DNA of 64,000 bases from Alteromonadales bacterium alter-6D02 (lineage in GTDB: Bacteria > Pseudomonadota > Gammaproteobacteria > Enterobacterales > Psychrobiaceae): contig PIZK01000027.1 in NCBI GenBank assembly GCA_002835545.1, positions 1 to 64,000 on the forward strand, given 5' to 3'. The notes beneath the pieces are model-generated. The model searched no databases, was not told where the DNA came from, and saw nothing but the letters and a program-made list of their open reading frames with translations. Positions 48,143 to 64,000 of the stretch are shown piece after piece. How positions within the stretch are numbered: position 1 is the first letter of the stretch; the number at the start of each line of letters is the position of its first letter. The position numbers and the translations under genes are program-made.

Positions 48143-48158
48143 TCATCCTTTAGAATGA
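48143..48158. promoter_or_regulatory. Island motif, copy 1 (before the TonB receptor)
   Basis: TCATCCT-TT-AGAATGA, a 16-bp near-palindrome ending 105 bp before the receptor start. It differs from copy 2 (TCATCCT-AA-AGGATGA) at three positions, two of them in the central AA/TT. It belongs to a set of five in the alcohol-oxidation island. Confidence 0.6.
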
Positions 48159-48262: not shown

Positions 48263-50641
48263 ATGTTCTACCTCACAGTGCTGGCAACAGCAATGAATGT
48301 TGCAATGAATACGCCACCGACGCCAGGGGCACAAACCCCAGCACAAGAAGTCATCAAAGTGACTGGTCAAACCCCGTTAACAAATGACCAACAAGGTCCT
48401 TACCTTCTTGGCGTGGCGCAAAAGATAACCGCTGAAGAGATTGAACGTTCAAACGCAAAAACACTGACACAACAATTAAAGAATACGCTCGTTAGCGTAA
48501 ATATTAATGATGTTCAAAACAACCCGTTCCAGCCTGATGTTCAATACCGTGGATTTACTGCCTCACCATTGTTAGGCTTACCGCAAGGTATATCTGTCTA
48601 TCTAGATGGCATCCGCTTTAACGAACCTTTTGGTGACACCGTTAACTGGGATCTGATTGCACTAACCGCCATTGATAATGTTACTTTATACTCAGGATCG
48701 AACCCTGTTTTTGGTCAAAACACCCTGGGCGGCGCTTTAGCTTTATCTGTTAAAGATGGTTTCACTTATGATGGTCATGAATTATCGGCGCAAGCGGGTA
48801 GCTTTGGAGAGAAACAGCTTAATGTGCAAAGTGGTGGTACGAGTGGAAATTGGGGCTACTACCTTAACCTAAACCATTATGAAGAAGATGGTTGGCGAGA
48901 TGGCTCTCCAAGTGAGGTAAAGCAATACTTAGCAAACCTCAGCTATAAAACAGATGATTTAACCGCTGATTTATTGTTTGCAACCAACAATAATACCATG
49001 ATCGGTAATGGTACTGTGCCAATCGAACTGCTTGAGCAGGAGTCTTCAACAGCAATCTACACACAGCCGGATCAAACGAAGACCAACTTGAACATGCTTG
49101 GCTTGAATATCACGGCAGCGTTAACAGAGGATTCTTCATTGGCGGTCAATGCATATTATCGCAAAAATGAAATCAGCAGCATTAATGGCGATGACAGTGA
49201 CTATGATGAATGTGAATTTGGAACAGCTGTTACACTATGTGAAGGTGAAGACGACGATGATGATGAAATCGATGGTATTGAGTCACACGGCGATGACGAT
49301 GATGAGGGTGAAGAGATAGAGCCTGTTCACTTTGTTGGCTATAACGAAGGACAGTATTTATCAGACATCATGCCAGCACTCGATGCTGATGATATAGACG
49401 GTACTTATAATACGGGGGCCACTGATAATGAAAGCTTTGGCTTTAGTGCGCAATTAGTTACCCAATGGGGTAATGGCCATGAATTAATTATTGGTGGTGG
49501 TGCAGATAAAGCTGATATCTCATTTGCAAGTGACACGCAATTTGCTATTTTACATAATGATACAGCAGAAGATGACCGAAGCGTTACACCGATACCCGGC
49601 CTGTTTGATCAAGAATCAACGGTTCGTTTAGATACTGAGACTACACAGTATTATTTTTATCTAGCCAACCGTTTTAAATTAGCTTCTGATTTACATTTAG
49701 ACATTGCTGGTCGTTATCATGACTCAAACATCCTGATGAATGATTTAATTGACGACGGTGAAGGCTCTTTAGATGGTGATCATGATTTCTCACGTTTTAA
49801 TCCTGCGATTGGTTTAAGCTACCAAATCTCACCACAATTGACGGCTAAATTAAGCTACAGTGAGTCATCTCGTAACCCTAGTCCAGCAGAGTTGAGCTGT
49901 GCCGACGAAGACGATCCTTGTAAGCTACCTAATGGTTTTGTTTCAGATCCTCCGCTAAAACAGGTAGTGGTAAACACCGTTGAATTGAGTTTATTGGGTA
50001 AAGACGATAATTTAAATTATGGAGTAACGTTCTTTAGTACACAAAGCCAAGACGATATCATCTTTCAACAAGCCGGAGAGCACCCAGCTCGCGGTTACTT
50101 TGTCAATATTGATGAAACACAGCGTCGTGGTGTCGAGCTATCTGCAAGCTATCGCGGTGAGAGCTTTGATATTACCTCAAGCTATAACTATCTAGATGCG
50201 ACATTTGAATCTCCATTTGTTTCATTTAGCCCAGTTAATCCGTTAGGACCAAACCGTCAAGTGAGTCCAGGTGATACAATACCTGGGCAACCTCAGCATC
50301 AAATCAAATTAATTGGTCAATACCAAGCAACTGAAAGTTTCGATATTGGTTCTGAGCTTAGTTATGCATCTGAAAGCTATTATCGTGGAGATGAGGCTAA
50401 CGAGAACCAGCAAATTGGTTCACATACCGTGGTTAATTTATTTGCAAATTATCAAATTACCCAACAACTCGCGTTAGAATTACGGGTTGATAATGTGTTT
50501 GATCGCCAATACTTCACTTTTGGCGCATACGGTGAAGCAGATGAAGTATTAGAAAATGTCTACCCTGATATTGAAGACCCGTATTTTGTTGGACCAGCAA
50601 AACCAAGGTCAGTATCTGTAGAATTAAGCTACCAGTTCTAA
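48263..50641 (+). CDS. TonB-dependent outer-membrane receptor with acidic loop
   Basis: 792 aa. A short signal-like N-terminus, a possible TonB box (EVIKVTG), a plug domain (about residues 45-170, with VYLDGIRFNEPFGDTVNWD and GQNTLGGALALSVKDG), then a 22-strand barrel ending in a typical SVELSYQF. Residues 327-354 form an extreme acidic loop with 19 Asp or Glu in 28 positions, right after a Cys pair (ECEF...LCEG); a second acidic Cys loop is CADEDDPC. Such loops suit capture of hard cations. The position at the head of the PQQ-dehydrogenase island and the shared upstream motif suggest import of lanthanide, calcium chelate or PQQ. The ligand is inferred. Confidence 0.88.
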   Translation: MFYLTVLATAMNVAMNTPPTPGAQTPAQEVIKVTGQTPLTNDQQGPYLLGVAQKITAEEIERSNAKTLTQQLKNTLVSVNINDVQNNPFQPDVQYRGFTASPLLGLPQGISVYLDGIRFNEPFGDTVNWDLIALTAIDNVTLYSGSNPVFGQNTLGGALALSVKDGFTYDGHELSAQAGSFGEKQLNVQSGGTSGNWGYYLNLNHYEEDGWRDGSPSEVKQYLANLSYKTDDLTADLLFATNNNTMIGNGTVPIELLEQESSTAIYTQPDQTKTNLNMLGLNITAALTEDSSLAVNAYYRKNEISSINGDDSDYDECEFGTAVTLCEGEDDDDDEIDGIESHGDDDDEGEEIEPVHFVGYNEGQYLSDIMPALDADDIDGTYNTGATDNESFGFSAQLVTQWGNGHELIIGGGADKADISFASDTQFAILHNDTAEDDRSVTPIPGLFDQESTVRLDTETTQYYFYLANRFKLASDLHLDIAGRYHDSNILMNDLIDDGEGSLDGDHDFSRFNPAIGLSYQISPQLTAKLSYSESSRNPSPAELSCADEDDPCKLPNGFVSDPPLKQVVVNTVELSLLGKDDNLNYGVTFFSTQSQDDIIFQQAGEHPARGYFVNIDETQRRGVELSASYRGESFDITSSYNYLDATFESPFVSFSPVNPLGPNRQVSPGDTIPGQPQHQIKLIGQYQATESFDIGSELSYASESYYRGDEANENQQIGSHTVVNLFANYQITQQLALELRVDNVFDRQYFTFGAYGEADEVLENVYPDIEDPYFVGPAKPRSVSVELSYQF

Positions 50642-51024: not shown

Positions 51025-51813
51025 CTACCGTCTACCACCTGATTTAGGACTAAAGCTTGCAAGAGCAAGGACAACAACAACGCAAGTGATTGGGATTAAC
51101 ACCATCAAAGTATCGGTATTAGCCTGCTCGTAGAGAGCGAACCGTAATAACTCGACACAGTAACTAAACGGATTGTAATGACAAATCCAGTATAACCACA
51201 AACTAGCTTCTTTCATTTTCCATAAAGGGTAAAGCGCACTGGATAGAAAAAACATTGGAAAAATAACAAAGTTCATCACGCCAGCAAAATTCTCTAATTG
51301 CTTAATGAGGTTTGATAGCATAAGCCCTAAAGCACCCAAAAATAGTGCAATTAAAAAGACAGCAGGGATAGCTGTTATATAACCCATAAAATCGATTTCA
51401 ACATCGACCAATTGGGCAAGTGCTAAAAAGATGTAGACTTGGATTAATGATAACAGCGCGGTCGCAAAGACCTTACAGAACAGCAAAAAAGGGCGGGGCA
51501 GTGGACTCATTAGTAAAACTTTCATACTTCCCATTTCTCTGTCATAGACCATAGACAGTGAGCTTTGCATTCCATTGAACAAGATAATCATGCAACACAA
51601 ACCAGGTGTAATGTAAGTTTGATAGGTAATATAAGTTCCATAAGGCTCCATGATGGAAACACCAAGCGCAGCCCTAAAACCAGCAGCAAAGACGACAAGC
51701 CAAAGCAGCGGTCTGATTAACGCACTGAGTAATCTGGTGCGTTGTTGGAAAAAACGGTGCAATTCACGTGATACGATCCCAAGAAAAGCGACATAGTAAT
51801 GTGACAGGTTCAT
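51025..51813 (-). CDS. ABC transporter permease of the PQQ-alcohol system (PedC type)
   Basis: 262-aa ABC-2 type permease with six TM helices. Segments VSRELHRFFQQRTRLLSALIRPLLWLVVF, YITYQTYITPG and DREMGSMKVLLMSPLPR fit ABC2 membrane proteins, including those found beside PQQ-dependent alcohol dehydrogenases in Pseudomonas (ped cluster). Last gene of a four-gene minus-strand operon: binding protein, propeller, ATPase, permease. ABC-2 folds usually export. In Pseudomonas putida the related transporter was reported to matter for lanthanide-dependent growth, so the true direction is open. Confidence 0.85.
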   Translation of the reverse strand: MNLSHYYVAFLGIVSRELHRFFQQRTRLLSALIRPLLWLVVFAAGFRAALGVSIMEPYGTYITYQTYITPGLCCMIILFNGMQSSLSMVYDREMGSMKVLLMSPLPRPFLLFCKVFATALLSLIQVYIFLALAQLVDVEIDFMGYITAIPAVFLIALFLGALGLMLSNLIKQLENFAGVMNFVIFPMFFLSSALYPLWKMKEASLWLYWICHYNPFSYCVELLRFALYEQANTDTLMVLIPITCVVVVLALASFSPKSGGRR

Positions 51814-51827
51814 ATAAAGCTCATTTG

Positions 51828-52568
51828 CTATATTTTATTGAATGCAAAAGCATCGGTTAACGCTGCGTATAATGCTTGCACATCATTCACTGCATACTGG
51901 GCTAAAAGTGTTGAGACTTGGCCTTGCTGTGCTACTCGCCCTTGGTTAAGCATGATCAAATAATCACTTGCGTTAATTTCATCAAGTAAATGTGTTGTCC
52001 AGAGCACAGCTAAACCCTCTTGCCTTACACATTGACGTAAGTAGTTGATGATCATGTGGCGACTTGGGTTATCAAGACCCACACTGGCCTCATCAAGTAA
52101 GAGTACTTTTGGTTTATGTAATAATGCTCTGACTAGCTCAACACGACGCCTATGACCGCCATTTAAACTTCGCACTTTGTCACCTAAACGAGATGATAGT
52201 TCAAACTCTTCAAGTAACGGCATAACGTTAGACAGGGATTGTTTTGCACTTAACCCATGTAAAGCGCCGTGATATACCAAATTTTGTTTAATTGATAAGT
52301 CCAAATCTAGGGTTGATTGTTGAAAAACAACCCCGAACAATCGCATTACTTTCGCAGTTTCTTTTTCAAGGTCAAAGCCATCGCAAAGAATGTTCCCGGA
52401 ATCGACTTTAGTTAATCTAGTTAACAAGGAAATCAGAGTACTTTTACCCGCTCCGTTAGGGCCAAGTAATACATTGAAACCAGGCTTGATCGCAAAGGTT
52501 ACTTTATCTAGGGCCTTTTTCGGACCATAATTGAAACTAATTTGATTGATTTCAAGTGTTGCAGTCAT
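51828..52568 (-). CDS. ABC transporter ATP-binding subunit of the PQQ-alcohol system
   Basis: 246 aa. Walker A is GPNGAGKST, the Q-loop lies in GVVFQQSTLD, and Walker B is VLLLDEASVGLD. The signature motif reads LNGGH followed by RRRVELVRALL instead of LSGGQ, which as I recall is a trait of this PQQ-associated subfamily. It energises the permease encoded 14 bases downstream. Confidence 0.9.
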   Translation of the reverse strand: MTATLEINQISFNYGPKKALDKVTFAIKPGFNVLLGPNGAGKSTLISLLTRLTKVDSGNILCDGFDLEKETAKVMRLFGVVFQQSTLDLDLSIKQNLVYHGALHGLSAKQSLSNVMPLLEEFELSSRLGDKVRSLNGGHRRRVELVRALLHKPKVLLLDEASVGLDNPSRHMIINYLRQCVRQEGLAVLWTTHLLDEINASDYLIMLNQGRVAQQGQVSTLLAQYAVNDVQALYAALTDAFAFNKI

Positions 52569-52582
52569 CTAAGTTCACCCCG

Positions 52583-53581
52583 TTATTTGCTTAGTTGACG
52601 GATTGCCACACCCCAAGGATAACGACCTACTTTGACAGAGCGAATAACCTTCTGCTTGGCTGTATCTATAACCGAAACATCGCCACTAACCCCATTCGTT
52701 GTCAGTAATAAAGACTGATCATGATTAAATGCAAGTTGCCAGACCCGACGGCCTACTAGGAGGTACTTAGTGACTTCTTGTGATTTAGTATCGATGATAG
52801 CGACATGGTTCGCTGGACCTAACGCAACATAAACAAAACGCTCGTTAGCCGTTAATTTAATCCCAACAGGTTGAATTCTATCTTTATGAATACCGTTAAG
52901 AGCAAAGTTGAATTTTTTAATAATTTTTTTGCTTGCGACATCAATTAACGAAACTGTACCACCAATCTCCGAGCTGACCCATAATTGAGAACCATCTTTG
53001 GTAAACTCTGCAGCACGAGGGCGCGAATCAACAAGTGTATTGGCAATATTAGTGTTTGTTTTGGTCTCTATCCAATGCACCATGTTAGTGGTCTCGGAGG
53101 TCACAATAGCAAGACTTCCATCTGGGCTTACAGCCAAGCCTTCAGGTTCTACACCAACGTCAACCTGACCAATAACACTACGTGATTCAATGTCAATGAT
53201 AGTCATCAATGCATCATCTTCATTGGCAGTATAGATTATCTTACCATGTGGGTGTAATGCGATAGTCTCAGGGTCAGCGCCAGAGGGCAGCTCTCCAATA
53301 ACTTGATCTGTCGCTAAATCAAGAATTTGTACGGTATCTGAATCACTAGCGCAAATATAAGCGAGAGTTTGCTCTTTATTGAAAATAATTCCCCTAGGAC
53401 GAAGACCAACTGGGATTTCTTTAACCACATCTAAACTAGCAAGATCAATTACTGAAATGTTGTTATCTTTTTCATTAGTGACATAAGCTAGCTCGGCACT
53501 GTGGGCTGCAAAGCTTAATAAGGCAAGCGCAAGACAACCAGATAATTTAGTTGTAATAGTATGTGAGATTTTATTAATCAT
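52583..53581 (-). CDS. YVTN beta-propeller protein of the PQQ-alcohol system
   Basis: 332 aa. Signal peptide (ending AAHSAEL), then seven YVTN/NHL-like blades (LAYVTNEKDNNISVIDLAS, GRRVWQLAFNHDQSLLLTTN and others), each about 42 residues, forming a periplasmic propeller. Known in PQQ-dependent catabolic clusters as an associated protein without assigned activity. I start at the ATG at 53581, eight bases after AAGGA; the longer frame begins with TTG at 53602 and lacks a ribosome site. Confidence 0.85.
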   Translation of the reverse strand: MINKISHTITTKLSGCLALALLSFAAHSAELAYVTNEKDNNISVIDLASLDVVKEIPVGLRPRGIIFNKEQTLAYICASDSDTVQILDLATDQVIGELPSGADPETIALHPHGKIIYTANEDDALMTIIDIESRSVIGQVDVGVEPEGLAVSPDGSLAIVTSETTNMVHWIETKTNTNIANTLVDSRPRAAEFTKDGSQLWVSSEIGGTVSLIDVASKKIIKKFNFALNGIHKDRIQPVGIKLTANERFVYVALGPANHVAIIDTKSQEVTKYLLVGRRVWQLAFNHDQSLLLTTNGVSGDVSVIDTAKQKVIRSVKVGRYPWGVAIRQLSK

Positions 53582-53592
53582 TGAGGGAGTCC

Positions 53593-54825
53593 TTATTGAC
53601 AAGTAGATTCTTTGTGATCGAAACCGAGTGTGTCAAGTTCCGTGACCGGGTGCAACATTCCTGCTTGTGGTGACTGCGAAATAAGTGCATTAGGTTGAAC
53701 AAGTGCTATTGGCATACGAAGTTGCTGGCTCCACGGACGGTATGAGAGTTTTCTACCTAAATACGCCGCCAATTCAAATTGATCTGATTTAATATGCCCC
53801 AATAACTTTGCAGGATCTGCTGAATTAGTTTTTGTAAGGGCTGATGCTAAAGTACGAATAGCCAAGTATCCGCTAAAGTCGACTTCATTCATTGCTCTAT
53901 TAGCAAGTTTAATAAAACGGTTTTGTAATTGCGTTGCTCCCCATTGTTCGATATTGCGATGCCAACCTAATGCTTCTAGCCCAGCAGAGCCAATCACAGG
54001 GCGCGGTAGGTAGGTATTAAATGGTAAATATTGAGCAAAGTCTTTATGTTTATCAGCGACAAATACAACATCATAATCTTTTCTTGTCTGGGTAAATAAA
54101 GGCATCTCTGCCCCGGCGCTACGACGTAAATCTGAATCAAAGTCCCAAGTTTTCTCTTTAATTAATTTGATCCCATAACGTTTTGCTGCACGTTTAAATG
54201 AACCTGTTAATTGCTTATCTTCTTCACGTTGACCTGTAACAACGAGCACGTCATTAAAGCGCCTTTTCAACAACCATTGAGCAAGGGCATCATTCTTCAT
54301 TGCGTAACTCGCAATGGTGTGTAACGTGTTGCTACTGCATTGTTGTTGTCGAAAAAAGTCATCTTGAAGGTTTATATTAAATAATATAACGGGCTTATCG
54401 CTTGCCCATTCTCTGGCAAGCTTTAAGCTGGCACGAGATAACTCGACTACAAAAAAACGACTACCTTGACTAAATTGCTGCTCTAAAGTAGAGATGATAG
54501 TTTGAGGTGTACTTATATCAACTTTATTTAATACTATCTTCTGATTTAAGAACTTGCCGGTGGTATTAGAATCATTAACGCCAAGTGTTGAACCCATAAA
54601 GCCACTGTCACTAGCAGGTTTAACCAAATTTGACAGCGTCGCGATAACAGGCTGTTTTTCTTTGATATAATCGACATCAAGGACGAGTTGTTCAGCAGAG
54701 ATAGGGATCAAAACAGATAAAACGGTTACGCACAGCGATGTTAATTTCGCAGGCTTGAATAAAATAGATAGTTTAGGCGCTGGTATAGCTGTAAATTTGG
54801 CTGCAAATTGTTGAAAATATTTCAT
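53593..54825 (-). CDS. Periplasmic binding protein of the PQQ-alcohol ABC system
   Basis: 410 aa. An N-terminal hydrophobic segment (LTSLCVTVLSVLIPISA) is a signal peptide with a long basic lead, followed by a type I periplasmic-binding fold similar to branched-chain amino-acid or amide binding proteins (ILFNINLQDDFFRQQQC, DVLVVTGQREEDKQLTGSF, DYDVVFVADKHKDFAQYL). The C-terminal part includes an INLDFSGYLAIRTLA-like helix (VDFSGYLAIRTLASAL). First gene of the minus-strand operon, diverging from the cytochrome gene across a motif-bearing promoter. The ligand is unknown. Confidence 0.8.
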   Translation of the reverse strand: MKYFQQFAAKFTAIPAPKLSILFKPAKLTSLCVTVLSVLIPISAEQLVLDVDYIKEKQPVIATLSNLVKPASDSGFMGSTLGVNDSNTTGKFLNQKIVLNKVDISTPQTIISTLEQQFSQGSRFFVVELSRASLKLAREWASDKPVILFNINLQDDFFRQQQCSSNTLHTIASYAMKNDALAQWLLKRRFNDVLVVTGQREEDKQLTGSFKRAAKRYGIKLIKEKTWDFDSDLRRSAGAEMPLFTQTRKDYDVVFVADKHKDFAQYLPFNTYLPRPVIGSAGLEALGWHRNIEQWGATQLQNRFIKLANRAMNEVDFSGYLAIRTLASALTKTNSADPAKLLGHIKSDQFELAAYLGRKLSYRPWSQQLRMPIALVQPNALISQSPQAGMLHPVTELDTLGFDHKESTCQ

Positions 54826-54971: not shown

Positions 54972-54987
54972 TCATCCTAAAGGATGA
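54972..54987. promoter_or_regulatory. Island motif, copy 2 (cytochrome/ABC divergon)
   Basis: TCATCCT-AA-AGGATGA, perfect 7-bp arms. It lies 85 bp before the cytochrome gene and 146 bp before the binding-protein gene, so one site can control both directions. The best copy of the five. Confidence 0.7.
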
Positions 54988-55072: not shown

Positions 55073-55513
55073 ATGAACAAGTCGTCACTAAAAAACAAAA
55101 TATTTGCAGCTATGATCTGTGCAACACCATTTTTAGCATCAGCACACGGTGATGTAACGCCTCAATCGATTGATACATCGACTATCCCACAATTAGGGAC
55201 AGAGTGGGAAGAAACTAACCCTTACCGTGACCAAACAGGAAAAATGTTAGACGAAATTACTCGCATTGGTTCATCTGCTTACACGCAAAACTGTGCACGT
55301 TGTCATGGCTTGGAAGGTATTTCTGGAGGAATCGCACCTGACCTAAGAATGTTACCAGCAGACTATGATGGCGATGAATGGTTCGTTTACCGTGTTCAAA
55401 ACGGTGCTGTACGAAATGGTGCTGTTTATATGCCTAAAATGTCAGAACACCTTAGTCAAGAAGCACTTTGGGCAATTAGAACTTGGTTAGAGTCTGTAAG
55501 TGTTGCAGAGTAG
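55073..55513 (+). CDS. Cytochrome c (PedF/c550-like)
   Basis: 146 aa with a signal peptide (ending FLASAHG) and one haem site CARCHGLEG; the distal Met is likely in VYMPKMSEHLS. It is the probable direct electron acceptor of the quinoprotein alcohol dehydrogenase, as cytochrome c550 (ExaB/PedF) is in Pseudomonas. Its 3' end overlaps the next gene by 14 bases, so the two are coupled. Confidence 0.88.
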   Translation: MNKSSLKNKIFAAMICATPFLASAHGDVTPQSIDTSTIPQLGTEWEETNPYRDQTGKMLDEITRIGSSAYTQNCARCHGLEGISGGIAPDLRMLPADYDGDEWFVYRVQNGAVRNGAVYMPKMSEHLSQEALWAIRTWLESVSVAE

Positions 55514-56378
55514 AACTATATTATTGATAGCACTTCTAGTCGTAAGTGCTATTAGCAGTTTAGCGCAGGGTCGAACCTACGACGATATTATTGAAACTAA
55601 GCAGCTCATAGTTTCGGTGTATCGTGATTTTGCGCCTTTTTCATTTGAAAAGGACGGTAAAGCGCACGGTATCGATGTTGATATAGCTAAGCAGATTGCT
55701 AAGTCTCTGAACGTTGAACTTACTGTGCGTTTTACAACGGCCGACGAGAGTGTGGAAGATGATTTGAGAAACACCTTATGGAAGGGAGATTTTCAAACTA
55801 AAACCAAAAGCGACTTAATGATGCGCGTTCCTTATGATCGTGACTATTCACAGATGCGTGATGATATTGGTGAGTTGGTTCATGATAGAGTGCACATGTT
55901 TGCTCCTTATCATACTGAGTCTTGGCAAATTGCATTTAATAAAAATAAGATAGAAGAAGTGTCTACCATGGCGGTTTTTCAATACCATGATATTGGTGTT
56001 GAAGTTGATACCGTCCCGGCGTTTTATCTTACTGGTGCATTTCGAGGAACCATGACTAAACACACTCATCATTACCCAAATATCCGCTTGGCGCGCGATG
56101 CGATGCTCGCTGAAGAGGTCGATGCAATCATGGGATTGCGCAGTGAAGTCAGTCACCTGTTAGTGGAACAACCTGCTAACTTTGAACTAGCGACTAATGC
56201 ATTCCCTCTAATCGGTCGTCAACAATGGGATATTGGCATGGCAGTAAAAAGTGATTATCGCCAACTGAGTTATGCTATCGGTGATGTTGTTACTGAAATG
56301 GTAAAAAATGGCCAAATGGCTCGGATATTTGAGCAGTATGGTTCCATTTATCAACAGCCAACTTACTACAACCCATAA
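55500..56378 (+). CDS. Quinoprotein-associated periplasmic binding protein (PedG/MoxJ-like)
   Basis: 292 aa, GTG start overlapping the cytochrome gene. Signal peptide (ending SSLAQG), then a type II periplasmic-binding fold of the amino-acid-binding (SBP family 3) shape: LIVSVYRDFAPFSFEKDGKAHGIDVDIA, DIGVEVDTVPAFYLTG, QWDIGMAVKSDYRQLSYAIG. These proteins accompany methanol and alcohol PQQ dehydrogenases (MoxJ, XoxJ, PedG). Work on XoxJ suggests they help activate the apo-dehydrogenase rather than import a solute. Confidence 0.85.
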   Translation: MLQSRTILLIALLVVSAISSLAQGRTYDDIIETKQLIVSVYRDFAPFSFEKDGKAHGIDVDIAKQIAKSLNVELTVRFTTADESVEDDLRNTLWKGDFQTKTKSDLMMRVPYDRDYSQMRDDIGELVHDRVHMFAPYHTESWQIAFNKNKIEEVSTMAVFQYHDIGVEVDTVPAFYLTGAFRGTMTKHTHHYPNIRLARDAMLAEEVDAIMGLRSEVSHLLVEQPANFELATNAFPLIGRQQWDIGMAVKSDYRQLSYAIGDVVTEMVKNGQMARIFEQYGSIYQQPTYYNP

Positions 56379-56677: not shown

Positions 56678-58441
56678 ATGATAAGTGCAGGTAAAACAAA
56701 GCTAAAAGCAGTAGCCGCTGTAATTGCTTTTACATTAGCAGCAGGTGCTAATGCAAAAGTAACAGATAAAGACATTATTAATGACCAAGCCACAACTAAC
56801 GATGTTGTATCAAATGGTTTAGGTCCTCGAGGGCAGCGCTTTAGCCCATTAACCCTAATTAACACTAAAACTGTAAAAGACATGCGTCCAGTATGGGGTT
56901 TTTCACTTGGTGGTGAGAAACAACGTGGTCAAGAGTCTCAACCAGTTGTTAAAGACGGTGTAATGTATATTACCGGTTCTTACTCACGTGTTTACGCAAT
57001 TGATGCAATTACAGGCGACGAGTTATGGCAATATGACGCACGTTTACCTGATGGCATCATGCCTTGTTGTGACGTTATCAACCGTGGTGTTGCACTTTAT
57101 GATGATTTAGTTATCTTCGGTACACTTGATGCAAAATTAGTCGCACTTAATAATAAGACAGGTAAGACTGTTTGGAAGAAAAAAGTAGAAGACTATAAAG
57201 CTGGTTACTCAATTACAGCAGCACCAATTGTTGTAAAAGGTAAAGTAATCACAGGTGTATCAGGTGGTGAATTTGGTATCGTTGGTAAAATTCGTGCGTA
57301 TGATGCAAAGACTGGTCAAATTGCATGGGAACGTCCAACAGTTGAAGGTCACATGGGTTATATCTGGAAAAACCGTAAGAAAATGGAAAACGGTATTTCA
57401 GGTGGCGAAGCTGGCAAAACATGGACTGGTGACTTATGGAAATCAGGTGGTGCTGCTCCGTGGCTAGGTGGTACATACGATCCAGAAGTTGATTTATTAT
57501 TCTTTGGTACAGGTAACCCAGCTCCATGGAACTCTCACTTACGTCCTGGCGATAACTACTTTTCTTCATCACGTCTAGGTATTGACCCTGACACGGGTAA
57601 AATTAAATGGCATTTCCAAACCACACCACATGATGGTTGGGATTACGACGGTGTAAACGAACTTATTCCATTTAACTACAAAGACGGTCGCAAGACAGTT
57701 AAAGCGGCGGCAACAGCTGATCGTAATGGTTTCTTCTATGTATTAAACCGTGAAAATGGTGATTTCATCCGAGGTTTCCCGTTTGTTGATAAGATCACTT
57801 GGGCTAAAGGCTTAGACGACAAAGGTCGTCCGATATTTAACGAGCCAGTTCGCCCTGGTAACCCAGCATTAAGTAAAGACGGTAAGAAAGGTTCTACTGT
57901 ACTTGCTGCACCTTCTTTCTTAGGTGGTAAAAACTGGATGCCTATGGCTTATAGTAAGGATACAGGGTTATTCTATGTTCCTTCTAACGAATGGGAAATG
58001 GATATCTGGAATGAGCCAACAGCATACAAAAAAGGTGCTGCTTACTTAGGTGCTGGTTTCACTATCAAATCAATTAACGAAGATTACATTGGTGTGTTAC
58101 GAGCCATTGACCCTAAAACGGGTAAAGAAGTTTGGAACCATAAGAACTACGCGCCATTATGGGGCGGTGTATTAGCGACAGCGGGTAATCTAGTATTTAT
58201 GGGTAACCCTGAAGGGTACTTAATGGCCTTTAATGCTAAGACTGGTGAAGTTGAATACAAGTTCAACACTGGCTCAGGTATCGTTGGTTCTCCAATCACT
58301 TGGAAAATGAATGGTGAACAATACGTGTCAATCTTATCAGGCTGGGGTGGTGCAGTTCCACTTTGGGGTGGTGAAGTTGCTAAGCGTGTTAAGAGCTTTA
58401 ACCAAGGTGGCATGGTTTGGACTTTCAAACTGCCAAAATAG
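56678..58441 (+). CDS. PQQ-dependent alcohol dehydrogenase, predicted lanthanide type
   Basis: 587 aa with a signal peptide (ending GANAKV); an eight-blade quinoprotein propeller that oxidises primary alcohols in the periplasm. PQQ-site marks: the adjacent-Cys disulfide in [10 protein letters not shown], blade motifs such as [12 protein letters not shown], and the Trp-docking repeats. Predicted metal ligands are Glu198 (GGEFG), Asn280 (TGNPAPWN) and the catalytic Asp322 in GWDYDG. Asp324, two residues on, is the extra carboxylate that distinguishes XoxF/ExaF/PedH-type lanthanide enzymes from calcium MxaF/ExaA (Ala or Ser there). The C-terminus ([12 protein letters not shown]) fits the ethanol-dehydrogenase branch. 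Own promoter with island motif; terminator after. Confidence 0.92.
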
Positions 58442-58585: not shown

Positions 58586-58601
58586 TCCTACTAAGGTATG
58601 A
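58586..58601. promoter_or_regulatory. Island motif, copy 4 (before the aldehyde dehydrogenase)
   Basis: TCCTACT-AA-GGTATGA, 13 of 16 identical to copy 3; its core TAC-TAAG-GTA is itself a dyad. It ends 143 bp before the aldehyde dehydrogenase start. Confidence 0.55.
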
Positions 58602-58744
58602 TGTTTTCCGTGCCAAGGGAGCATAGGTTTAACCAACACACTCACACTACTATTAATAAAACAAAAACGTTTGCGCTAGCAAACATATTACAACTAAAGC
58701 TACTTGGTATAAAATTCAAGTTAGCACTTTTATTGAGGTGTTCT

Positions 58745-60265
58745 ATGATCTATGCATATCCTGGCAGTGAAGGTTCTGTCGTTACTTTTAAACCACGTTA
58801 TGAAAACTTCATTGGCGGTGAGTGGGTTGCACCAGTAAACGGTAATTACTTTACCAATTCTACGCCAGTAACGGGCGAAGCATTTTGTGAAATCCCTCGT
58901 TCGTGTGAAAAAGACATTGAGCTAGCACTAGATGCTGCACACGCTGCAAAAGATGCTTGGGGCAAAACCTCTGTAGCAGAACGTTCAAATATCTTATTAA
59001 AAATTGCTGATGCAATCGAAGCTAACCTAGAAACGCTTGCTGTTGCAGAAACTTGGGATAATGGTAAAGCTGTTCGTGAAACATTAGCTGCTGATGTTCC
59101 ACTATGTGTTGATCACTTCCGCTACTACGCTGGTTGTATCCGTGCTCAAGAAGGCACACTTTCTCAAATCGATGATGACACTGTTGCTTACCACTTCAAC
59201 GAGCCGCTAGGTGTTGTTGGTCAAATTATTCCTTGGAACTTCCCATTACTAATGGCCGCTTGGAAACTGGCTCCAGCTTTAGCTGCCGGTAACTGTATCG
59301 TATTGAAACCTGCTGAACAAACACCAGTAAGTATTCTTGTTTTTGCTGAGATTATTGCAGATATCTTACCAGCGGGTACATTAAACATTGTTAATGGATT
59401 TGGTCGTGAAGCAGGTGAAGCATTAGCAACTAGCACTCGTATTGCGAAAATTGCATTTACAGGCTCTACTCCTGTAGGTAGCCACATCTTAAAATGTGCT
59501 GCTGAAAATCTAATCCCATCAACTGTTGAATTAGGTGGTAAGTCTCCTAATATCTACTTCAACGATGTTGTTGCTCACGAAGATGATTACCTAGAGAAGT
59601 GTGCTGAAGGTTTCGTTCTTGGTTTCTTTAACCAAGGTGAAGTATGTACCTGTCCATCTCGTGCATTAATTCAAGAAGACATCTTTGAAGAATTCATGGG
59701 ACACGTTATCGCTAAAGCTAAGAAGATTGTTCGTGGTAACCCACTTGATACAGAAACTATGGTTGGTGCTCAAGCTTCTAAAGAGCAATTCGACAAGATC
59801 ATGGGATATCTACAAGTTGGTGTTAACGAAGGCGCTGAAGTATTAACTGGTGGTGATAAAGAAACACTAGGTGATTCTTTCGATACTGGTTATTACATCC
59901 AACCGACTATTCTTAAAGGTAATAACTCAATGCGTATCTTCCAAGAAGAAATTTTTGGTCCAGTTATCGCTGTAACAACCTTTAAAGATGAAGCTGAAGC
60001 TCTAGAAATTGCAAACGATACAGCATACGGCCTAGGTGCTGGTGTATGGACTCGTGATACAAACAAAGCTTACAGAATGGGTCGTGGTATTGAAGCTGGT
60101 CGTGTTTGGACTAACTGTTACCATCTATATCCTGCTCACGCTGCATTTGGTGGCTACAAGAAATCTGGTATTGGTCGTGAGACTCATAAGATGATGCTTG
60201 GTCATTACCAACAAACTAAGAACTTATTAGTTAGCTACAGCACAAGCCCGTTAGGTTTCTTCTAA
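58745..60265 (+). CDS. exaC: NAD-dependent aldehyde dehydrogenase, ExaC type
   Basis: 506-aa cytoplasmic aldehyde dehydrogenase. Nearly every segment follows Pseudomonas ExaC/acetaldehyde dehydrogenase: [21 protein letters not shown] start, the general base Glu in VELGGKSPN, the catalytic Cys in [15 protein letters not shown], and the [14 protein letters not shown] end. It oxidises the aldehyde made by the PQQ enzyme to the acid (acetaldehyde to acetate if ethanol is the substrate). The start is the ATG at 58745 after GAGGTG; the longer frame would include the island motif. The NosR-like gene follows 34 bases later. Confidence 0.95.
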
Positions 60266-60299: not shown

Positions 60300-62390
60300 A
60301 TGCTGATTAATTCATTGAAAAGCATAGTAGGGCTTTTTCTGTTTTTAATAATCTCATTAGCCCAACCAGCAATCGCTTTTGTTGGAGAGCAGGGCGTAGT
60401 TACTACAATCCCCGTTGATGTTAAACAAGCATTTCCTAGCGCGACACGAGTAAAACGCGTCGAAAAAAATCCAAACATAACTGGTGTCTACCAGTTGAAC
60501 GAACTCATTGGTTATACTTTCGAGTCAGATCATTTTACCAATTTCATCGGTTTTTCCGGTAAAACAATAAACTTGTTTATTGCCCTTGATCCTCACGGGG
60601 TGATAACCAGTATCAAAGTGCTAGACCACCACGAACCCATTTTTATTCATGGGCTTGGTGAAAGGCCTATGATTCAATTTATCAAACAGTTTGAATCGCA
60701 TTCAATCAAAGAGCGCTTTATAGTTGACGCTCGAGACCGTCAGATGAAGGATGTGACTCACATTGATGGCGTAACAAAAGCGACAGTCTCAGCATTAGTG
60801 ATTAATGATACAATTATCGCGTCAGCGCTTAAAGTTGCTCGTACGATGCTCGAGGGTTTTGCACCTTTGAGTACAAAAGTTCTAGATGAAAACCTTTTCG
60901 AACCCTTGTCTTTCAACCAATTAGTCGAACGTGGAATGGTCGCTCACTGGTCATTGGCCAAGCAGGACACTATTCAAGCGTTTTCACACCTAGCTCAACC
61001 ATTAAGTGATTATGATGACGCTGGGCCTCTCATTGACCTATACATAGCTCCGATCACTGTTCCCATCGTTGGCAGAAACATTTTAGGTGATAATGAGTAT
61101 CGACGTTTAATTGATAGTATTGCGCCTGGCAGCAGTGCTTTAATGGTCATCGATAATGGAGAGTATGGCTTTATTAGTGATGATTTTATCCCCCAAACGG
61201 CGCCTGAGCGTTTTAAAGTAGGGCAGTCAGGGTTGCCACAAGATAGCCGAGATATCGATTTTTATAGTTTTAACGACCCATTTTTTAATAGCCCTTTGCC
61301 AATTCACAAGCGTTTGAAAGTATTAAACATCAAGTCTCAATCTGGATTTGAACTATCATCGCCAATAAATTTTGCTGTTACAGTTGATTATAGCCAATCA
61401 TTTTTAGTTAAAAATACAGAACACCTCACCTTTGATTTCACTTTACCTGATTCACTGTTTGTTGAGAATGCGGCTGCTCTTGAACCAAAACAACAACCGT
61501 TATGGCTGAAGTTATGGCAACAGCGCTGGTTGGAAGTCGTTATCACTATCCTCTACTTAGCTTTTGTCACGTTTATATTTTTAAACCCTGATAGATTTAG
61601 CACTAATACAACGATTAGGGTTTTGAACATCACCATTCAGGTACGTCATATTGCCTTGTGCTTCGTGATTGCGGTGATTGGCTTTTATAGCCAAGGTCAG
61701 CTTTCAGTCGTAAATATATACACATTGTTCCTTTCCATATATCAGGGATTTAATATAGAGGTATTCTTACTAGACCCTATTATTTTCATTCTTTGGTTGT
61801 TTGTATTTATTGCTACGATTTTATGGGGAAGAGGTGTTTTTTGCGGTTGGCTATGTCCGTTTGGTGCTTTACAAGAGTTTGCCACCACATTGGCCACTAA
61901 ACTAAAAATTAAGCAATATAAAATAAAACCTCACCACCATCAACGTGCTAGAGCAATCAAGTACATTCTTTTGCTTGGACTTGTTGGCAGTGCTTTTTAT
62001 TCGCTAACCCTTGCTGGTCAATTAGCTGAAGTTGAACCGTTCAAAACGGCTATTACTTTATACTTTGTGCGCTATTGGCCCTTTACAGTGTATGCAATTA
62101 TCCTTGTAATTCTGAGTTTAAAAATTCATAAGTTCTACTGTCGTTATCTATGTCCTTTAGGGGCTGGCTTTGGAGTACTTGGTCGTTTCCCGTTGCTTAA
62201 ATGGATACGCAGACGTCAAGAATGCGGCAATCCTTGCCAACTCTGCCAAAGCAAAAAATGTGGCATAGATGCTATTAATAAAACAGGAAGTATCAATTAC
62301 AGTGAATGTATTGGGTGTTTCGATTGTGTTGTAACCATCAACGACCCTAAGTTGTGTGTGATTGATAAATATAAGAAGAGAGTTAAATAG
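60300..62390 (+). CDS. NosR-like membrane flavo-iron-sulfur protein
   Basis: 696 aa, built as NosR: signal peptide (ending QPAIAF), periplasmic FMN-binding domain (about residues 70-185) with DGVTKATVS, whose Thr162 fits the ApbE flavinylation site, then about six TM helices from residue 410. A polyferredoxin with CGWLCPFG and CRYLCPLG loops in the membrane part and a C-terminal [4Fe-4S] region (CGNPCQLCQSKKCG, CIGCFDC) completes it. NosR proper serves nitrous oxide reductase; no nos gene is here. In this island it probably moves electrons across the membrane for the alcohol system or for PQQ/metal maturation. Co-transcribed with exaC. Confidence 0.8.
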   Translation: MLINSLKSIVGLFLFLIISLAQPAIAFVGEQGVVTTIPVDVKQAFPSATRVKRVEKNPNITGVYQLNELIGYTFESDHFTNFIGFSGKTINLFIALDPHGVITSIKVLDHHEPIFIHGLGERPMIQFIKQFESHSIKERFIVDARDRQMKDVTHIDGVTKATVSALVINDTIIASALKVARTMLEGFAPLSTKVLDENLFEPLSFNQLVERGMVAHWSLAKQDTIQAFSHLAQPLSDYDDAGPLIDLYIAPITVPIVGRNILGDNEYRRLIDSIAPGSSALMVIDNGEYGFISDDFIPQTAPERFKVGQSGLPQDSRDIDFYSFNDPFFNSPLPIHKRLKVLNIKSQSGFELSSPINFAVTVDYSQSFLVKNTEHLTFDFTLPDSLFVENAAALEPKQQPLWLKLWQQRWLEVVITILYLAFVTFIFLNPDRFSTNTTIRVLNITIQVRHIALCFVIAVIGFYSQGQLSVVNIYTLFLSIYQGFNIEVFLLDPIIFILWLFVFIATILWGRGVFCGWLCPFGALQEFATTLATKLKIKQYKIKPHHHQRARAIKYILLLGLVGSAFYSLTLAGQLAEVEPFKTAITLYFVRYWPFTVYAIILVILSLKIHKFYCRYLCPLGAGFGVLGRFPLLKWIRRRQECGNPCQLCQSKKCGIDAINKTGSINYSECIGCFDCVVTINDPKLCVIDKYKKRVK

Positions 62391-62678: not shown

Positions 62679-63596
62679 ATGAAGATATTAGTTCTCGGAT
62701 CAGCTGCAGGTGGTGGATTTCCTCAATGGAACTGCCACTGCGCTAATTGTAAGGGCCTTAGAGAAGGCACTATAAAAGCAACACCTCGTACCCAGTCTTC
62801 AATTGCCGTTAGTCTTGATGGTAAAGATTGGGTGTTAATTAATGCATCCCCCGATTTAAGACAACAAATCAATCAGTCTCCACAGTTGTGGCCAGAAAAC
62901 CAAACACGTGGGACCAATATTCGTGGAGTCTTACTCTGTGATAGTCAGGTCGACCACACCACTGGGTTGTTAACTTTACGAGAAGGTCTACCACTCGATG
63001 TATATTGTACTAAAGAGGTACATCAAGATTTATCTACGACTTATCCCCTTTTTAACATGTTGTCTCATTGGCATGGGGGTCTTAGTTACAAGACAATAGG
63101 GACAGATCATACTCAAGCGTTTACTGTAACTGGTGTCAGTGGGCTAAGTTTTTATCCTGTTGTGCTAGAAAGTAATGCGCCGCCTTACTCAACGTATCGT
63201 GATGCCGTTGTCGATGGTAATAATATCGGACTAAAGATTGTCGACGAGAAAACCGGTAAATGGCTATTTTACGCACCTGGTATTGTTGAAACAAACCCAC
63301 TAGTGGAACAAATGTTAGATGGGGCCTCTTGTGCGCTTATTGATGGCACGTTATGGCTTGATGATGAAATGATCAGTCAAGGCGTTGGCGAAAAACTAGG
63401 GAGTGAAATGGGACACATGCCAGTTAATGGAGAGTTTGGTTCTGTATCATTGTTAAATCGATTTAACATTGATCGCAAAATTTTGATACATATCAATAAC
63501 ACCAATCCCATTTTGAATGAAGATTCTAAAGCACATCAATACGTTATTGAGAACGGTGTCGAGATTGCCACCGACGGTCTAGAAATCACGATTTAA
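62679..63596 (+). CDS. pqqB: PQQ biosynthesis protein PqqB
   Basis: 305 aa, normal length. Metallo-beta-lactamase fold with the PqqB zinc site GGFPQWNCHCANCKG near residues 13-27 and CDSQVDHTTGLLTLREG around 89-105. It is an iron-dependent hydroxylase acting on the Glu-Tyr derived diamino acid during PQQ synthesis, according to recent work. pqqC starts 12 bases after its stop. Confidence 0.96.
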   Translation: MKILVLGSAAGGGFPQWNCHCANCKGLREGTIKATPRTQSSIAVSLDGKDWVLINASPDLRQQINQSPQLWPENQTRGTNIRGVLLCDSQVDHTTGLLTLREGLPLDVYCTKEVHQDLSTTYPLFNMLSHWHGGLSYKTIGTDHTQAFTVTGVSGLSFYPVVLESNAPPYSTYRDAVVDGNNIGLKIVDEKTGKWLFYAPGIVETNPLVEQMLDGASCALIDGTLWLDDEMISQGVGEKLGSEMGHMPVNGEFGSVSLLNRFNIDRKILIHINNTNPILNEDSKAHQYVIENGVEIATDGLEITI

Positions 63597-63608
63597 GAGA
63601 GAGTTGCT

Positions 63609-64000
63609 ATGAGCCAGCCTTTAACAAAAGAACAATTCGAAAAACAGCTACGTGAGAAAGGGGCCTTGTATCATATATATCACCCATTCCACATCGCTAT
63701 GCATAACGGCGAATGCAGCAAAGAACAAATCCAAGGATGGGTAGCAAATCGATTTTATTATCAAGTCAACATACCAGTTAAAGACGCCGCTATTATGGCT
63801 AACTGTAGAGATATTAATACTCGCCGTCAGTGGATACAGCGTATTTTAGATCATGATGGCAGTGTTGGCGATGAAACGCTTGGCGGTATTGAGGCATGGT
63901 TACAATTAGGTGAAGCTGTTGGCCTCACTCGTGAACAACTATTGTCACAAGAGTTAGTGCTTCCCGGTGTTCGTTTCGCTGTTGATGCGTATGTAAATTT
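63609..64000 (+). CDS. pqqC: PQQ synthase PqqC (partial, runs off the right edge)
   Basis: The first 130 residues (of about 250) are in the window. [40 protein letters not shown], and [11 protein letters not shown] match PqqC, the cofactor-free oxidase that performs the last ring closure and oxidation of PQQ. pqqD and pqqE are expected just past the edge. Confidence 0.96.

Follow-up and report, generated by a model that had tools for sequence, protein, structure and literature searches.

The receptor gene studied here is a single open frame of 792 codons in the window, by which we mean the whole 64,000-nucleotide stretch of DNA that was analysed, and it adjoins the genes of a Lut/Ped-type ABC transporter (PedC, B, A2 and A1, 51025-54825), a neighbourhood by which LutH receptors are recognised. 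The features of the locus are collected in Table 1. The first-pass annotation had described the receptor as heading a predicted metal/PQQ uptake and oxidation system, which was not confirmed, as in the window it converges on pedC and forms its own transcription unit. Past the window, the genome continues with pqqD and pqqE (both assigned by family models), a peptidase-like frame, NosP, an NahK/ErcS-type hybrid kinase and a regulator that is nearest to ErdR but scores below its cut-off. The peptidase-like frame after pqqE, which has no match in NCBIfam, was taken as PqqF by its position only.

Table 1. Features of the receptor locus, in positions of the window
Feature	Position	Strand	Basis or remark
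Palindrome TCATCCTTTAGAATGA	48143-48158		One mismatch; 104 bases before receptor start codon
TonB-dependent receptor, 792 aa, LutH-type family (putative)	48263-50641	+	Pfam Plug and barrel, tree, AlphaFold2 model
TonB-box-like stretch EVIKVTG, residues 29-35	48347-48367	+	Sequence
Asp125 in plug, candidate metal ligand	48635-48637	+	Alignment; role inferred
N308-G-D-D-S-D ... C317-x8-C326, conserved start of outer loop L4	49184-49240	+	Alignment, model
Hyperacidic part of outer loop L4, residues 327-354, 18/28 Asp/Glu	49241-49324	+	Sequence, model
Second Cys loop SCADEDDPCKLPNGFVSDPPL, residues 545-565, predicted outer loop L7, family signature	49895-49957	+	Alignment, model
pedC/lutF-type ABC permease	51025-51813	-	TIGR03861 over cut-off
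pedB/lutE-type ABC ATPase	51828-52568	-	TIGR03864 over cut-off
pedA2/lutB-type beta-propeller protein	52583-53602	-	TIGR03866 over cut-off
pedA1/lutA-type binding protein	53593-54825	-	TIGR03863 over cut-off
Perfect palindrome TCATCCTAAAGGATGA	54972-54987		Between divergent pedA1 and pedF
Cytochrome c-550 PedF	55073-55513	+	TIGR04494 over cut-off
Family-3 periplasmic binding protein	55500-56378	+	PF00497
PQQ alcohol dehydrogenase, D-x-D lanthanide-type motif (WDYD)	56678-58441	+	TIGR03075 over cut-off; sequence
Acetaldehyde dehydrogenase ExaC	58598-60265	+	NF050026 over cut-off
NosR-like membrane flavin/iron-sulphur protein	60300-62390	+	NF046105 561.6 bits, under cut-off 1000
pqqB and start of pqqC	62679-63998	+	pqqB: match to annotated B. 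multivorans pqqB stretch; pqqC: family model

The dehydrogenase of the window is the only one in the genome that scores over the TIGR03075 cut-off. Its lanthanide-type ligands, as first annotated, are borne out by the extra Asp two residues past the catalytic Asp (WDYDGVNE), which forms the D-x-D motif described in PMC11996626. The motif occurs in 15 of the 16 dehydrogenases near receptors in which the site is covered (two partial matches were dropped) and in 29 of the 30 best-scoring PQQ dehydrogenases of our phylum sample. Being near universal, it is no special evidence, and we discarded it as uninformative about a lanthanide receptor.

In a congener (locus L120), pedF and the genes of the binding protein, the dehydrogenase, ExaC and the NosR-like protein directly follow the receptor gene on one strand without any pedABC gene in between, and the receptor's two neighbours on the opposite side match those of the window. 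The NosR-like flavin/iron-sulphur protein recurs near the receptor in 17 of 34 loci (the window; L006-L025, L067, L120); in Variovorax its gene is separated from that of the receptor relative by an FMN transferase gene.

A palindrome shared within the genome

The common operator of the first-pass annotation proved to be real. The shared 16-base palindrome, TCATCCTNNAGGATGA (TCATCCT-N2-AGGATGA), is present as a perfect copy and as a copy with one mismatch at the two sites of Table 1, and a search of the whole genome at up to one mismatch returned three sites, namely the two already mentioned, at the receptor and at pedA1/pedF, and one preceding an iron-dependent alcohol dehydrogenase gene, compared with none for a reversed control pattern. 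When two mismatches are allowed, the count rises to 14 sites, versus five for the reversed control. The third copy (G000 contig 6, 216960-216975; L151:6961-6976) sits at the very end of a LysR-type gene, about 103 bases before the gene of a YiaY-family iron alcohol dehydrogenase, and yiaY is described as part of the ped control system in Pseudomonas (PMC12997753).

Among 27 further loci (L004-L030), no palindrome with up to two mismatches was found before the receptor except TCATACTTTAGAATGA at L023:9757, which has two mismatches; the other matches in these loci are TCCTCCT-type palindromes just past the receptor or far off. A two-mismatch copy in the congener precedes the dehydrogenase, not the receptor, and no gene of the receptor/ped system was found near the sites with up to one mismatch in other congeners. 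As the palindrome is poorly conserved outside this genome, a regulon can be proposed locally, for this genome only.

Outer loops and conserved residues of the receptor

The receptor contains a plug domain (Pfam, residues 52-158) and a barrel domain (residues 231-745). An AlphaFold2 model built with 22 sequences (pLDDT 78.5, pTM 0.80) is predicted to have 22 barrel strands by our own count and the chain ends in Phe792, which together with the plug gives the architecture of a TonB-dependent receptor. The stretch EVIKVTG is presumably the TonB box, an assignment that we take from general knowledge of the family. The start of the gene (48263-48330) encodes a signal-like N-terminus with no basic residue close to Met1, and the open frame reaches only three codons upstream of Met1 (795 in total), both of which suggest that the true start of the receptor may be unusual. 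Loops were assigned to the two sides by our strand count from the plug, with long loops outside and short turns inside. On this basis the acidic loop would lie outside the barrel as L4 and the CADEDDPC sequence in outer loop L7, in agreement with a placement outside the barrel as first proposed.

Residues 327-354, EGEDDDDDEIDGIESHGDDDDEGEEIEP, contain 18 Asp or Glu in 28 positions, correcting an earlier count of 19, and are the most acidic stretch of that length in the receptor; in 10,000 residue shuffles the largest number reached was 15, and none reached 18. The Cys pair reported beside the stretch is present (C317/C326), and an NGDDSD-like motif together with this pair opens L4 in all 27 rows of the marine clade. 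In the model, strands 291-311 and 380-402 flank residues 329-350, whose pLDDT is below 50. For comparison we used control receptors from this and four other genomes (56 long frames, 40 of which match the family profile, giving 37 unique receptors out of at least 205 family matches, with per-genome counts of 34, 42, 51, 50 and 38). When the most acidic stretches of the 37 were ranked, the window receptor came highest (18), followed by a ZnuD-like His/Asp/Glu-rich receptor of the same genome (17), a Shewanella orthologue (14) and a second ZnuD-like receptor (13), and the remaining 33 had 10 Asp/Glu or fewer. The two ZnuD-like receptors of the window's genome (L248:2691-4901, minus strand; L255:2270-4687, plus strand) match the NCBIfam ZnuD model below its cut-off and carry very long His/Asp/Glu runs, for example EHDEHDEHDEHEHDEHEHDEHEHEHDEA, with His interspersed in the acidic runs of both.

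The acidic run is variable. Across orthologues of 45-61% identity its length varies between a few acidic residues and over 20, and it is down to a few in some that are 54-58% identical: after the L4 Cys pair the congener has only CDDDEE, two Glaciecola receptors only CDLEDDNE and a Shewanella receptor CDEDDE, while those of Alteromonas have more than 20 acidic residues. The net charge of L4 is -28 in the window receptor and between -8 and -38 in all 27 marine-clade rows, compared with 0 to +1 in six receptors that occupy the position of LutH in their gene clusters, -3 to -8 in ten f66 rows, -3 to -6 in six Burkholderia-clade rows, -1 to -5 in five methanotroph rows and 0 to -14 in 18 other rows. 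Absence of the acidic stretch from close orthologues, which the first-pass annotation had named as evidence against its reading, was therefore found in part, in the congener, the two Glaciecola receptors and the nearly uncharged loop of the LutH-positioned receptors. A run that varies in this way and is not a mark of the family is unlikely to be an essential site, and the proposal that the 28 residues form a capture site is left unsupported.

We put it at slightly under even odds that the run is simply a neutral low-complexity expansion in a tolerant loop, an explanation that concerns the loop only and is compatible with a lanthanide receptor. The variation in run length, the low pLDDT and one row with eight identical codons in succession (L014) are consistent with such an expansion. 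The acidic codons, however, are mixed in the 27 marine-clade rows (GAT 276, GAC 127, GAA 106, GAG 44), with a longest same-codon run of two to four in 26 of them, so that simple recent repeat slippage is insufficient as an explanation, except perhaps in L014. The uniformly negative L4 of the marine clade also argues against neutrality, as does the finding that among the 36 other control receptors comparable runs occur only in the two ZnuD-like receptors and the Shewanella orthologue. The hyperacidic part of L4 is a lineage-specific elaboration that, by analogy with ZnuD, whose His/Asp/Glu-rich loop is described as a fishing net for zinc (PMC4557270), may act as a metal net. The same analogy suggests that a run of acidic residues only would suit a hard ion. 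A plain acidic run should nevertheless fill with the calcium and magnesium of seawater, in which calcium is reported to be about a billion-fold above the lanthanides (PMC11996626). A correlation of loop acidity with lanthanide use was considered and found unsupported, the loop being near neutral in the LutH-positioned receptors and short in Burkholderia, where the short-loop relatives nonetheless adjoin D-x-D dehydrogenases (L063, L068). In the literature searched we came across no account of an acidic loop in receptors of the LutH type, which is not proof of absence.

The second acidic Cys loop was also recovered as annotated (C546-ADEDDP-C553), within predicted outer loop L7 (residues 538-567 of the model). 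Conservation was counted over 69 of 72 aligned rows (PqqU, L071 and L111 were dropped): E543, C546 and Asp562 are invariant in 69/69, and P552, C553, P563 and L565 are kept in at least 97%. In the plug, position 125 is Asp in all 69 homologues and aligns with Gln121 of PqqU, which contacts PQQ. Invariant Arg residues are found at 96, 118, 537 and 621, and Arg300 is kept in 65 of 69. Judged from these alignments, the family mark is the second Cys loop and not the acidic run.

Distribution and relatives

We searched 398 proteobacterial genomes, the window's own included, and found the receptor (E <= 1e-50) in 34, a TIGR03075 PQQ alcohol dehydrogenase over cut-off in 94, PedC over its cut-off in 55 and PqqC in 70. 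A PQQ alcohol dehydrogenase is present in each of the 34 receptor genomes, compared with 60 of the 364 others (Fisher p 2e-24, not corrected for kinship). Of the 34, 24 also have PedC over its cut-off, and 18 of those 24 carry it no more than 15 kb from the receptor gene. Among the 94 dehydrogenase genomes there is a weak excess of PedC with the receptor (24/34 versus 31/60 without it, p 0.085, kinship ignored). In a second set, reached through the receptor loci and including the window's genome, all 23 genomes have a dehydrogenase, with at least one D-x-D copy each. The full PedA1, A2, B and C set accompanies the receptor in 10 of 16 other loci checked, and in 12 of 34 receptor loci the examined stretch, of unequal flank length, showed no gene of the PQQ/ped system.

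One scan of genome contigs returned 28 relatives, from Alteromonas, Aestuariibacter, Glaciecola, Colwellia, Thalassotalea, Shewanella and methanotrophs, and the receptor is present in two of nine genomes of the window's own genus. Twenty-five plasmid records carry a relative, of which 10 were examined. PQQ dehydrogenase genes lie near the relatives of Sphingobium, Novosphingobium, Variovorax and Burkholderia multivorans and, recognised by sequence only in an unannotated record, on a B. cenocepacia plasmid; none was seen near those of Caballeronia, Methylocalor, Ideonella, M. nodulans and Agrobacterium. On the Ideonella plasmid (L066), the relative has as neighbours genes for an MbnP-type copper protein and an FMN transferase as well as one that is named MbnM, and these copper-gene neighbours make a change of substrate inside the receptor family possible.

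At locus L103 the gene order is PedA1-PedA2-PedB-PedC-receptor followed by a lanmodulin-like protein with four EF hands and DPDKDGT-type loops. The lut cluster published for Methylorubrum extorquens comprises lutA, lutB, lutE, lutF, lutG, lutH and lanmodulin (PMC7391723), a layout that places the L103 receptor in the position of LutH. Mutants in lutH are reported to be without La deposits, and an mxaF lutH mutant did not grow on methanol with La until acclimated (PMC7391723); an mxaF mutant of M. aquaticum 22A is described as depending on a receptor close to LutH to grow on methanol with La (PMC9301485). A LutH-like receptor, a response regulator and a lanmodulin-like EF-hand gene also stand in a row on plasmid pMNOD02 of Methylobacterium nodulans (L062), where the ABC genes are not adjacent.

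In a quick tree of 63 of the 72 rows (nine similar rows were dropped), the L103 receptor, which is the same gene as that of L085, clusters in a single clade with five relatives. The window's marine clade, of 19 rows and with support 99, joins the clade of LutH-positioned receptors with an SH-aLRT of 97, and this grouping stands apart from the Burkholderia and methanotroph rows. The label LutH rests on synteny, and by homology the grouping is with lanmodulin-adjacent receptors in the position of LutH. The window receptor is 31-32% identical to the LutH-positioned receptors, and TonB receptors that far apart can differ in substrate. For LanA of Methylotuvimicrobium buryatense, less than 20% identity to the M. 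extorquens receptors is reported (PMC6839425). In an ocean survey, 41 receptors of Alpha- and Gammaproteobacteria are reported to cluster with the proven lanthanide receptors of Methylobacteriaceae (PMC11996626).

Substrate of the receptor

Taken together, the best reading of these sequence comparisons, to which we assign a probability of about 0.7, is that the receptor is of the LutH type and imports lanthanides in a ped/lut alcohol-oxidation system. Like LutH of Methylorubrum extorquens AM1 and TonB_Ln of Methylobacterium aquaticum 22A, it is a TonB receptor encoded within or close to the PedABC/Lut ABC genes, in a genome that uses a D-x-D PQQ dehydrogenase. It also shares a family with the lanmodulin-adjacent receptors found here. 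It differs from the LutH-positioned receptors in the charge of L4 and from LutH and TonB_Ln in that the window has an ethanol-type alcohol system, and no lanmodulin-like gene was noticed among its neighbours. The charged outer loop is long, as in ZnuD, likewise a metal receptor (which the window receptor is predicted to be), although the acidic run has one His and the two belong to different sequence families; ZnuD is absent from the 12 NCBIfam families listed for the window receptor at 1e-5. The surrounding genes resemble the ped cluster of Pseudomonas putida, with PedA1A2BC, PedF, a D-x-D dehydrogenase, NosP/NahK-type sensors and an ErdR-like regulator. P. putida, in contrast to the window, is said to be without a LutH homologue (PMC6839425, PMC12997753); that it has PedA1A2BC and PedH but reportedly no close homologue of the known lanthanide receptors (PMC6839425) counts against the lanthanide reading, as do the modest identity to LutH-positioned receptors, the weak PedC excess, the near-universal D-x-D motif, the 12 loci in which no gene of the system was seen and the Ideonella relative beside copper genes. 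Free calcium, the other ion first proposed, would be implausible as a substrate in seawater. The first-pass idea thus survives as a receptor of the PQQ-alcohol-oxidation system, probably for lanthanides given its LutH-positioned kin beside lanmodulin, and is unsupported where the acidic run is taken as the capture site.

It is improbable, in our view, that the receptor takes up some other metal chelate used with the system, such as one of iron, copper or a similar metal, and that the acidic loop has no bearing on the substrate. In NCBIfam the receptor scores best, though below the cut-off, with the siderophore-receptor model TIGR01783; one relative lies by MbnP/MbnM copper genes (L066), an ApbE-type gene and an annotated 4Fe-4S protein gene stand beside the Variovorax relative, and the NosR-like protein of the window has a match in the Variovorax locus. 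Against another chelate stand the complete co-occurrence with PQQ alcohol dehydrogenases and the clustering with PedABC and lanmodulin genes.

About equally improbable is import of PQQ, or of a PQQ-metal complex, by a PqqU-like receptor. The best solved match of the model in Foldseek is PqqU with PQQ (9c4o, TM 0.84 by target), but in VIA-align BtuB, FecA, PqqU and FhuA all score Z 36-39, which leaves the fold silent on the substrate; the absence of ZnuD among 50 VIA-align rows is uninformative. The PqqU model NF041535 gives 110.9 bits, far from its curated cut-off of 1200 bits. The invariant Arg residues might bind an anionic ligand, and Arg300 is two positions away from the residue that aligns with Arg304 of PqqU; yet the published PqqU signature of Y99 (Y/F/W at 99), R304 and R365 (PMC12124388) is replaced by Leu104, Asn302 and Phe421, the first of these alignments agreeing in MAFFT and hhalign and those in the barrel being less sure. 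Every receptor genome holds a PQQ dehydrogenase, and seven of the 34 lack PqqC, a minority that could need external PQQ. Among the 94 dehydrogenase genomes, however, the receptor goes with PqqC (27/34 versus 30/60 without it, p 0.008, kinship ignored), the reverse of what a scavenger predicts, and with pqqC, D and E present the window's genome does not need to import PQQ. The window receptor thus shares the fold of PqqU (YncD) of E. coli without its PQQ-binding signature, in a genome with PQQ synthesis genes, which disfavours the PQQ alternative of the first-pass annotation.

For the preferred lanthanide reading, we infer both the substrate and the direction of transport: the receptor would import lanthanide ions, free or chelator-bound, into the periplasm, where they would serve the D-x-D PQQ alcohol dehydrogenase and from where the neighbouring PedA1A2BC (Lut-type) ABC transporter would carry them inward. 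The substrate site may lie near the invariant Cys loop of L7, the invariant Arg537 and Asp125 of the plug. If the acidic part of L4 has any role, it may, as in ZnuD, concentrate metal ions near the pore rather than form a specific site. A more far-reaching version, in which the marine clade would be a chelator-free lanthanide receptor whose Cys-closed loop and poly-acidic net gather Ln(III) despite its great scarcity in seawater and hand it to the L7 Cys loop/Asp125 site, appears doubtful to us.

Were this chelator-free version true, the net would be a hard-metal counterpart of the His-rich loop of ZnuD and would supply the outer-membrane step of the ped system, and the acidic loop poses the testable question of whether free lanthanide can be gathered from seawater despite the excess of calcium. 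Distant lanthanide receptors are described as hard to recognise because their ligand-binding residues are unknown (PMC11996626). Arg537, Cys546/Cys553, Asp562-Pro563 and plug Asp125 provide a searchable signature of the family and named residues to mutate.
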